NCBI RefSeq assembly: GCF_003264855.1
Contig: NZ_NFZS01000001.1
Location: 124,001-188,000, forward strand
Reading direction: 5' to 3'
Source of the DNA: Dyella jiangningensis
GTDB taxonomy: Bacteria > Pseudomonadota > Gammaproteobacteria > Xanthomonadales > Rhodanobacteraceae
Length of the DNA stretch: 64,000 nt
The first letter of the stretch is position 1; every line of letters begins with the position of its first letter. The position numbers and the translations under genes are program-made. A model generated the notes under the pieces. The model was given only the letters and a program-made list of their open reading frames with translations, ran no database searches and was not told the origin of the DNA. Positions 43,401-44,080 of the stretch are shown in pieces.

Positions 43401-43419
43401 CTGGCACGCTTCCTGCTTT
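43401..43419 (+). promoter_or_regulatory. Sigma-54-type promoter 1
   Basis: CTGGCACGCTTCCTGCTTT matches the RpoN consensus YTGGCACG-N4-TTGCW at all but one conserved base, with GG (43403-43404) and GC (43415-43416) exactly 10 nt apart. Transcription would begin near 43427. Confidence 0.6.
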
Positions 43420-43426
43420 ACTCTTC

Positions 43427-43547
43427 ACGCACTTTCCACGGGCAGAAGCTGCGCGACAACGCGCGCCGAGATCAAGCGACAGGGGCTTGATCGCGTGCCG
43501 GGGAGAGGAAGCAAGACGGCGCCCCTCGGGGCGCCGTCGTTTTTTTT
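43427..43547 (+). ncRNA. Candidate sigma-54-dependent small RNA
   Basis: About 120 nt between a sigma-54-like promoter and a strong intrinsic terminator, with no start codon giving a sensible frame. Predicted parts: CACG/CGTG closing pair (43437-43440 with 43493-43496), hairpin GCGCG-ACAA-CGCGC (43451-43464), hairpin GATCAAGC/GCTTGATC with loop GACAGGG (43470-43492), a purine-rich single strand 'GGGGAGAGGAAGCAA', and the terminator. I do not recognise it as a named RNA family. The 5' end is inferred from the promoter. Confidence 0.5.
43515..43547 (+). terminator. Strong intrinsic terminator of the candidate sRNA
   Basis: An 11-bp stem GACGGCGCCCC/GGGGCGCCGTC with a 2-nt loop, followed by GTTTTTTTT. 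No protein gene on this strand precedes it, which is what draws attention to an RNA gene here. Confidence 0.9.
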
Positions 43548-43586: not shown

Positions 43587-43649
43587 TCTGGCGCCCGGCG
43601 GTCTCAGGAACAGGGGGAATCCAGGATGACCGTGTTGCCGGGCGCCAGA
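43587..43649. repeat. 13-bp inverted repeat with 37-nt loop
   Basis: TCTGGCGCCCGGC (43587-43599) and its perfect complement GCCGGGCGCCAGA (43637-43649). It has no transposase and no second copy seen in the window. It could be an RNA hairpin or the remnant of a small mobile element. Confidence 0.6.
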
Positions 43650-43770: not shown

Positions 43771-43787
43771 ATGACGTACAGCGTCAT
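43771..43787. promoter_or_regulatory. Palindrome upstream of sigma-54 promoter 2 (possible enhancer site)
   Basis: ATGACG, five bases, CGTCAT. Its centre is about 54 bp upstream of the -24 GG of promoter 2, roughly -79 from the predicted start, in the range where enhancer-binding proteins bind. Confidence 0.4.
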
Positions 43788-43830
43788 TTCGTGATCGAAG
43801 ACCATTTTGCATGTGAGCCGCATCACATTG

Positions 43831-43849
43831 CTGGCATGGCCGTTGCATT
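43831..43849 (+). promoter_or_regulatory. Sigma-54-type promoter 2
   Basis: CTGGCATGGCCGTTGCATT fits YTGGCACG-N4-TTGCW with a single C-to-T change; GG (43833-43834) and GC (43845-43846) are 10 nt apart. The start would be near 43858, leaving a 37-nt leader before the 61-residue gene. Confidence 0.65.
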
Positions 43850-43894: not shown

Positions 43895-44080
43895 ATGGAT
43901 TTCAGCTTCGATTTCCAACCCGTTTATCCGCATCACGACCTGCTGATCGAGCTCGGTCGCGTCGAGATGGCGATGGAACATCTGGATGCCCGCAGCGAAG
44001 ACGAGCGTCAGGTGCTTCGCCCGCGCCTGATGTCGCGCATCAGCCGCTTGCGTGACGAATTGCAGAGCCTGGAAGTCTGA
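43895..44080 (+). CDS. Unrecognised 61-residue protein behind a sigma-54-like promoter
   Basis: A small protein I do not recognise. The sequence begins MDFSFDFQPVYPHHDLLIE and is acidic and mostly helical, with leucine/isoleucine spacing in the last 25 residues ('MSRISRLRDELQSLEV') that could support a short coiled coil. It has no signal peptide, membrane helix or cysteine. GGAGGAG (43882-43888) is an almost perfect ribosome binding site six bases before ATG 43895, supporting real translation; ATG 43880 is in frame but lacks one. It is alone on its strand, between mnmG and pepN. Confidence 0.75.
   Translation: MDFSFDFQPVYPHHDLLIELGRVEMAMEHLDARSEDERQVLRPRLMSRISRLRDELQSLEV

Follow-up and report, generated by a model that had tools for sequence, protein, structure and literature searches.

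A putative sigma-54-dependent counterpart of the small RNA asX1 and a convergent C-loop hairpin beside mnmG in Dyella

A stretch of 64,000 nucleotides from Dyella jiangningensis (hereafter the window) carries, beside mnmG, what is probably a form of the small RNA asX1 under sigma-54 control, together with a convergent partner that displays a C-rich loop, the two RNAs probably being mutually antagonistic by loop-loop pairing. This reading draws on what can be seen in the DNA itself, namely the promoter element, the fold, the synteny, the selection of the partner as a minus-strand RNA and the complementarity of the two loops. The initial annotation had proposed a sigma-54-driven gene for a non-coding RNA at this place, and the conservation of promoter, hairpins and terminator in relatives, together with compensatory base changes, argues for that proposal. 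The features on the plus strand, with the neighbouring gene, are as follows.

43315-41441: mnmG, divergent neighbour of the small RNA gene
43402-43417, plus strand: sigma-54 (-24/-12) promoter TGGCACGCTTCCTGCT, with no other exact match in the window and with nearly constant spacing in relatives
43429-43547, plus strand: asX1-like small RNA, judged from conservation, fold and a full-length sub-threshold match to RF02235
43432-43437, plus strand: 5' arm of the outer stem, CUUUCC, in the MFE structure; columns 5-8 of alignment A1 covary with columns 84-87
43448-43466, plus strand: hairpin 1, in the MFE structure; columns 25-26 and 41-42 changed on two sides
43470-43492, plus strand: hairpin 2, GAUCAAGC-loop-GCUUGAUC, in the MFE structure; two-sided changes in 6 of 6 pairs
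43480-43485, plus strand: CAGGGG motif at the loop of hairpin 2, seen by eye in 29 of 29 loci of the first set
43501-43507, plus strand: 3' arm of the outer stem, GGGAGAG, from the MFE structure and covariation; most of the stretch earlier called exposed
43515-43547, plus strand: intrinsic terminator with a 10-bp stem, a tetraloop and eight T (stem 43515-43538, T run 43540-43547)

The sigma-54 promoter

The -24/-12 consensus is TGGCACGN5TGCW. Its only exact match in the 64-kb window is the site at 43402-43417, and four matches with one mismatch were observed against 4.6 expected; because this is chance level, the promoter motif alone would be weak evidence. We scored the stretch between mnmG and a downstream inverted repeat (element 2, see below) in 92 loci for sites that keep the GG and GC and agree with the consensus at 10 or more of its 12 positions. 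Such a site is present in 87 loci; dinucleotide shuffling produced one in 63 of 3680 cases, and the opposite strand in 0 of 92. The remaining five loci score 9 (L031, L032, L106, and L109) or 8 (L111), and no convincing sigma-54 site was found in L111. In 132 of the 152 sites parsed, the CAC of the RNA follows after 12 or 13 nt; the 152 take in some small-ORF promoters and spurious sites. In relatives the -24/-12 box, the RNA, its hairpins and the terminator are kept, while the bases that separate promoter from RNA drift. What had been described as a sigma-54-like promoter with GG and GC 10 nt apart is thus a perfect -24/-12 site, and both promoter and hairpins are kept beside mnmG in Dyella and its relatives. 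As is typical of a sigma-54 gene, a conserved GG-N10-GC element stands at a set distance from the predicted start, and the genome holds rpoN (one match) as well as enhancer-binding proteins (seven strong matches), an inventory that is consistent with the switching by an enhancer-binding protein suggested at the outset.

A 61-aa ORF at 43895-44080 (plus strand) has its own -24/-12 site at 43832-43847, which reaches at least 10 of 12 positions in 45 of 45 loci (28 of 1800 shuffles). The ORF had no match in Pfam or NCBIfam; 136 relatives were found at E<=0.001, hypothetical where named, and one source assigned DUF465. The promoters of the asX1-like RNA and of this ORF may share one enhancer-binding protein. 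Upstream of the ORF promoter lie a CRP/Clp-like TGTGA-N6-TCACA and a TGACG-N5-CGTCA palindrome (43812-43827 and 43772-43786), both conserved by eye in 20 loci of the Dyella group and possible activator sites. A TGTGA-N6-TCACA was also seen by eye ahead of the asX1 sigma-54 promoter in L031 and L032, two Xanthomonadaceae loci. Among genomes of the order with no rpoN match, 19 of the 20 listed belong to the family that we label f9 (15 further genomes stand beyond these 20), and f9 had neither asX1 nor element 2 among the matches listed.

Structure of the plus-strand RNA

The structured RNA starts 12 nt past the promoter, with a predicted 5' end at 43428-43430 and its 3' end at the T run. The folding energy of 43427-43547 is -65.4 kcal/mol (z -5.1), which was equalled by 0 of 200 shuffles. 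The fold is a three-way junction made of an outer stem, hairpin 1 and hairpin 2 with its CAGGGG loop, followed by a GGAAGC/GGACGC linker and the terminator. Both hairpins of the initial annotation are found in the MFE structure (43448-43466 and 43470-43492), enclosed by the outer stem, which was absent from that description and in which GGGAGAG (43501-43507) pairs with CUUUCC and C43439 (43432-43439). Of the terminator described as 11 bp with eight T, the T residues stand, and steric constraints limit the stem to 10 bp, closed by a CUCG tetraloop. The stretch GGGGAGAGGAAG had been regarded as exposed and as a ribosome-binding-site mimic or a sequestering motif; most of it lies in the outer stem, and the covariation of the GGGAGAG stem speaks against an exposed mimic, the exposed motif being CAGGGG.

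Compensatory changes, looked for in related genomes as the initial annotation had suggested, are many and include both hairpins. They were counted in two alignments, A1 (53 sequences of Rhodanobacteraceae and neighbours) and A2 (19 asX1-type sequences), whose input was filtered for CAGGGG and thinned to less than 93% likeness (73 of 131 kept, 72 used, with L184, a small-ORF promoter, left out and L256 trimmed). In A1, 93.3% of the pairs are standard over 15 paired positions, 13 of which show two-sided changes, and 0 of 500 shuffles matched both the pairing and the two-sided changes. The corresponding figure for A2 is 14 of 20 pairs with two-sided changes, again with 0 of 500 shuffles. Read on the plus strand, A1 contains 115 G.U cells against 18 C.A cells, and this excess fits a plus-strand RNA. 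A1 and A2, being filtered for CAGGGG, cannot show this motif to be invariant. Among the parsed sites it is present in 137 of 152, some of the 137 being small-ORF sites (L184 and L253). Four of the 15 sites without it (L056, L181, L195, and L260) are RNAs with CAGGG and another base, and the others resemble small-ORF promoters or spurious sites; further exceptions are L113 and L134 (CAGGAG), L126 (CAGGGU), and L042 (CAGGGA). At L110, L112, L141, L142 and L250, all that is left of the sigma-54 RNA is a GUCAGGGGG-type segment with a terminator, which may represent a minimal version of it.

The linker brings to mind an RNA that titrates RsmA/CsrA through GGA motifs, since GGA is present there, and Xanthomonas has an RsmA-sequestering small RNA of a different kind, RsmU, as described in the excerpt of PMC7694677 at hand. 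The several conserved GGA motifs in hairpin loops that would mark such an RNA were not found in the Rhodanobacteraceae forms, whose loop reads CAGGGG and whose GGGAGAG stretch lies in a stem, and we give this explanation almost no weight.

Relation to asX1

A query of 166 bases matched 31 of 61 genomes; 30 loci were fetched and the whole unit was found in 29, L030 being dropped as a match to the terminator only. No Rfam family besides rRNA and tRNA reaches its cut-off in the 64-kb window. At a relaxed threshold the best match is asX1 (RF02235), over its full length at 43430-43547, with 27.3 bits (E 0.05 over 601 bases), below the gathering cut-off of 70 bits; taken alone this match is weak. 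Only two of 11 related loci matched RF02235 in Rfam, at 38.6 and 33.7 bits, also below the cut-off.

The relation is better judged from distribution and context. asX1 was found in 34 of 200 genomes of the order, all of them in the sister family Xanthomonadaceae (f2), and in 0 of 14 control genomes. All 30 asX1 loci that were fetched have mnmG as divergent neighbour, and so do 28 of the 29 Rhodanobacteraceae loci; at the 29th (L005) the contig begins 317 bases upstream, and that piece holds no mnmG match. A -24/-12 site, with a score of 9-11, lies directly upstream in all 30 fetched asX1 loci. In the reverse direction, we trained a covariance model on 35 sequences of the Dyella/Rhodanobacter type and ran it on 23 Xanthomonadaceae loci. 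It matched at the asX1 coordinates in 20 of them at E<=1, nine of these below E 0.01, and missed three; chance matches to this model, up to 19.7 bits, are as strong as the weaker asX1 matches. Judging from the restriction of asX1 to Xanthomonadaceae, the mnmG synteny, the upstream -24/-12 sites and the reverse model matches, which point to homology, we regard the window RNA as a divergent Rhodanobacteraceae counterpart of asX1. Common to both are the position divergent to mnmG, the CAC 5' end, the three-way junction, the CAGGGG loop, the GGAAGC-type linker, the terminator, the -24/-12 site and the adjacent element 2, whereas the Dyella form falls below the Rfam cut-off in sequence and its terminator and outer-stem sequences differ. 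The Rfam entry of asX1 names neither sigma-54 nor a partner.

The original report of asX1 is that of Schmidtke (2012), to which both of the following papers refer. Expression of asX1 has been described in X. campestris (PMC4652430) and in Xylella cells (PMC12189769), and small RNAs of its set have been linked to virulence (PMC12189769); the excerpts of these two papers give no mechanism for asX1. The RNA is not named in the excerpts of the sX13 paper (PMC3771888) and of a Xanthomonas small RNA screen. None of the papers in the library searched mentions asX1 together with RpoN, and a wider search gave no title on them among the matches listed.

The second element and its strand

The features assigned to the minus strand are as follows.

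43515-43538, minus strand: back of the small RNA terminator, with the minus tail UCUUGCUUCC, a possible 3' end of the partner in Dyella
43588-43649, minus strand: partner hairpin (element 2) with a 12-bp outer stem, a short inner stem and a large loop
43607-43622, minus strand: partner loop block GGAUUCCCCCUGUUCC, in which CCCCUGU (43610-43616) complements ACAGGGG of the small RNA

Element 2 is a nearly invariant inverted repeat that starts 40 nt past the T run. It has one match in the genome of the window, which rules out a repeat family. Among the matches listed it occurs in 60 of 61 genomes of the family of the window, and it was also found in 10 genomes of families f3, f4, f6 and f12; of 16 further loci fetched, 14 lie beside mnmG and the two f3 loci do not. 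A pattern scan returned at least 119 stretches in named genomes, and the 80 listed are mostly from Rhodanobacteraceae/Lysobacterales. A form with a different stem is present in 30 of 30 asX1 loci. In a set of 274 genomes of the class, three matched, namely the genome of the window itself and two weak matches that have neither mnmG nor a hairpin. The partner region gave nothing above the Rfam cut-offs.

The 16-base loop block (GGAACAGGGGGAATCC in plus view) is identical in 29 of 29 loci of the first set and 14 of 14 further loci, which were not chosen by the loop block. It varies in Xanthomonadaceae, where 28 of 30 loci carry a single A-to-G change, and in f3, where both loci have one extra A. 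The changes in the stem bear on the strand. Read on the plus strand, 142 sequences (selected by the exact loop block, and hence uninformative on its invariance) contain 27 C.A, two G.U and 10 other mismatches, and the stem of the Xanthomonadaceae form gives 32 C.A against two G.U in 25 sequences; such cells across sequences are not independent events. A cruder choice of stem in longer windows, with 50 distinct arm pairs, gave 52 C.A against 16 G.U, which is weaker and in the same direction. Since C.A on one strand is G.U on the other, the selected RNA is that of the minus strand. Pairing on this strand was also counted in 32 diverse sequences, hand-picked for alignment and including two with wrong ends (L022 and L024): 99.2% of the outer stem and 85.6% of the inner stem are paired, with two-sided changes in nine of the 12 outer pairs. 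From this pattern of substitution we conclude that selection acts on element 2 as a hairpin in a minus-strand RNA.

A plus-strand reading had first been favoured, because some lineages lack the preceding terminator and show terminator-like plus-strand hairpins after element 2 (by eye); in loci without the asX1 terminator, a plus transcript could run through it (by eye). The reading of element 2 as a plus-strand part of the small RNA transcript was rejected on the single changes in the stem, mostly C.A on plus. A short coding sequence (W-I-P-P-V-P on the minus strand) was likewise rejected, as non-triplet indels surround the loop and start codons are not conserved (by eye).

On the minus strand, 71 of 137 loci, among them 19 of the 30 from Xanthomonadaceae, have a terminator-like structure after the partner, as do 36 of 1370 shuffles; none was found in the other 66 loci. 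Many Rhodanobacter and Xanthomonadaceae loci have a separate minus-strand terminator hairpin within about 10 nt of the partner. A TTGNNN-N17-19-NANNCT box, a pattern written after viewing the loci, lies 82-101 nt upstream of the partner in 23 of 30 Xanthomonadaceae loci (39 of 1500 shuffles), and no convincing minus-strand promoter for the partner was found in Dyella. These structures suggest that the partner is transcribed.

Since element 2 is on the same strand as mnmG, the locus might instead serve the control of mnmG in cis, with the sigma-54 promoter overlapping the mnmG promoter region, or with element 2 as a far leader of mnmG and asX1 as its antisense RNA. The maintained divergent placement would suit this, as would a conserved minus-strand TACCATA that resembles a -10 element and, in Dyella, is some 25-30 nt away from the -24 box (by eye). 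It is opposed by the terminator-like structures that separate element 2 from mnmG in the 71 loci, by the apparent presence of a proximal promoter of mnmG's own, and by the maintenance of a specific structure and loop in asX1, which plain antisense action does not need; we judge cis control to be quite improbable.

Loop-loop complementarity

The loop of the convergent partner that we favour is complementary to that of the small RNA. In Dyella, ACAGGGG faces CCCCUGU over 7 nt; in Xanthomonadaceae, GGAACAGGGG of asX1 faces CCCCUGUUCC of the partner over 10 nt; and in three loci of f12, where the sigma-54 RNA is reduced to little beyond the loop motif and a terminator, CAGGGGGAAUC faces GAUUCCCCCUG over up to 11 nt. 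The extension beyond the shared core thus falls on different sides in different lineages, and in every case it runs into complement of the partner. With accessibility included, and with no account taken of kissing geometry, the pairing in Dyella is estimated at -8.2 kcal/mol. No shuffled partner hairpin out of 100 came as low; with a 131-nt partner one of 100 did, and of shuffled asX1 sequences five of 100. Over 29 genomes, which are those with both asX1 and sX13 loci (G031 and G127 were left out, having no parsed RNA), 22 of 870 shuffled partner hairpins equalled the real pairing. The real pairing also exceeded a reversed control in 40 of 40 loci (47 hand-chosen loci, minus five with no parsed RNA and two with no exact loop block within 900 bases). 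As the loop of the partner is nearly without variation, covariation between the loops gives no direct test of the pairing.

A different C-rich RNA has to be weighed as the counterpart of the CAGGGG loop. asX1 might be a sponge for the small RNA sX13, with element 2 unrelated to it, a candidate that was drawn from a 9-nt match (GGGGAGAGG/CCUCUCCCC). sX13 was matched in 70 of 200 genomes of the order including that of the window, 37 of them over the cut-off, and one of 14 control genomes matched below it; its loops carry UCCCCUG-type runs complementary to CAGGGG, and the excerpt of PMC3771888 describes action through C-rich loops on G-rich motifs, with repressed mRNAs rich in GGGG. The asX1-sX13 estimate goes down to -8.8 kcal/mol in some Xanthomonadaceae genomes; it is -4.2 kcal/mol in the genome of the window, where it was equalled after shuffling sX13 in 24 of 100 cases and after shuffling asX1 in 50 of 100. 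In the same 29 genomes, 359 of 870 shuffled sX13 sequences equalled the real one, as opposed to the 22 of 870 for the partner hairpin, and the 9-nt match uses a stretch of asX1 that is paired and varies apart from sX13 (by eye). The shuffles thus gave the sponge no support, and we set it aside as highly improbable.

Most described small RNAs act on mRNAs. An asX1 that pairs in trans with CCCCUG-holding mRNAs, the partner hairpin being an independent RNA, would fit this usual mode of action, and its hairpin loop is both exposed and conserved. A seed shared with mRNAs would not explain why the complementarity to the partner outgrows CAGGGG on lineage-specific sides, and this reading seems to us unlikely.

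Proposed mechanism and comparison with known systems

We infer that both RNAs are transcribed and that they pair, and the direction of the effect and the downstream targets are inferred with them. Sigma-54 RNA polymerase would transcribe 43429-43547 from 43402-43417 once an enhancer-binding protein is active, and the RNA would fold into its three-way junction and terminator and display the CAGGGG loop. A second small RNA, placed tail to tail on the opposite strand, would display the C-rich loop GGAUUCCCCCUGUUCC from the hairpin at 43588-43649, and the two loops would pair into a loop-loop complex. Upon sigma-54 activation, asX1 would then sequester the partner RNA or trigger its decay. The partner would otherwise repress mRNAs with G-rich ribosome-binding sites, by analogy with sX13, CJnc190 and RepG. 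Judging from sX13 (PMC3771888) and CJnc190 (PMC8687705), as presented in excerpts of these papers, the C-loop partner is a likelier mRNA repressor than asX1.

CJnc180/CJnc190 of Campylobacter jejuni are antisense-encoded, perfectly complementary and processed by RNase III, and the excerpt of PMC8687705 mentions no sigma-54 control; the proposed Dyella pair, in contrast, is arranged tail to tail, and its complementarity is limited to the loops. sX13 of Xanthomonas (RF02232) has a C-rich loop like that of the partner hairpin, but it lies at another locus and has three C-rich loops, with no convergent partner mentioned in the excerpt of PMC3771888. The genome of the window has an sX13-like small RNA of its own (L118, G000:C1:453345-453463), at 42.7 bits with an Rfam cut-off of 50.

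Like the Dyella RNA as proposed here, the sigma-54-dependent quorum regulatory RNA of Vibrio fischeri (PMC10162802) is a small RNA driven by sigma-54 and enhancer-binding proteins. This RNA, which we take to be Qrr1, has unrelated targets.

Implications

Within the literature that we searched, three points are new: that asX1 occurs outside Xanthomonadaceae, that its sigma-54 promoter is conserved, and that it has a convergent partner. The conserved promoter provides a candidate regulator for asX1 and the complementary partner a candidate target. Element 2 brings to the mnmG neighbourhood a further structured RNA that Rfam does not match, and the several families in which it occurs include crop pathogens as well as soil bacteria. 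It is possible, though we put it forward tentatively, that the two RNAs form a switch encoded side by side in Rhodanobacteraceae, Xanthomonadaceae and parts of f4 and f12. Its C-loop RNA would broadly repress G-rich ribosome-binding sites, and a sigma-54 signal would relieve this repression by loop-loop pairing.
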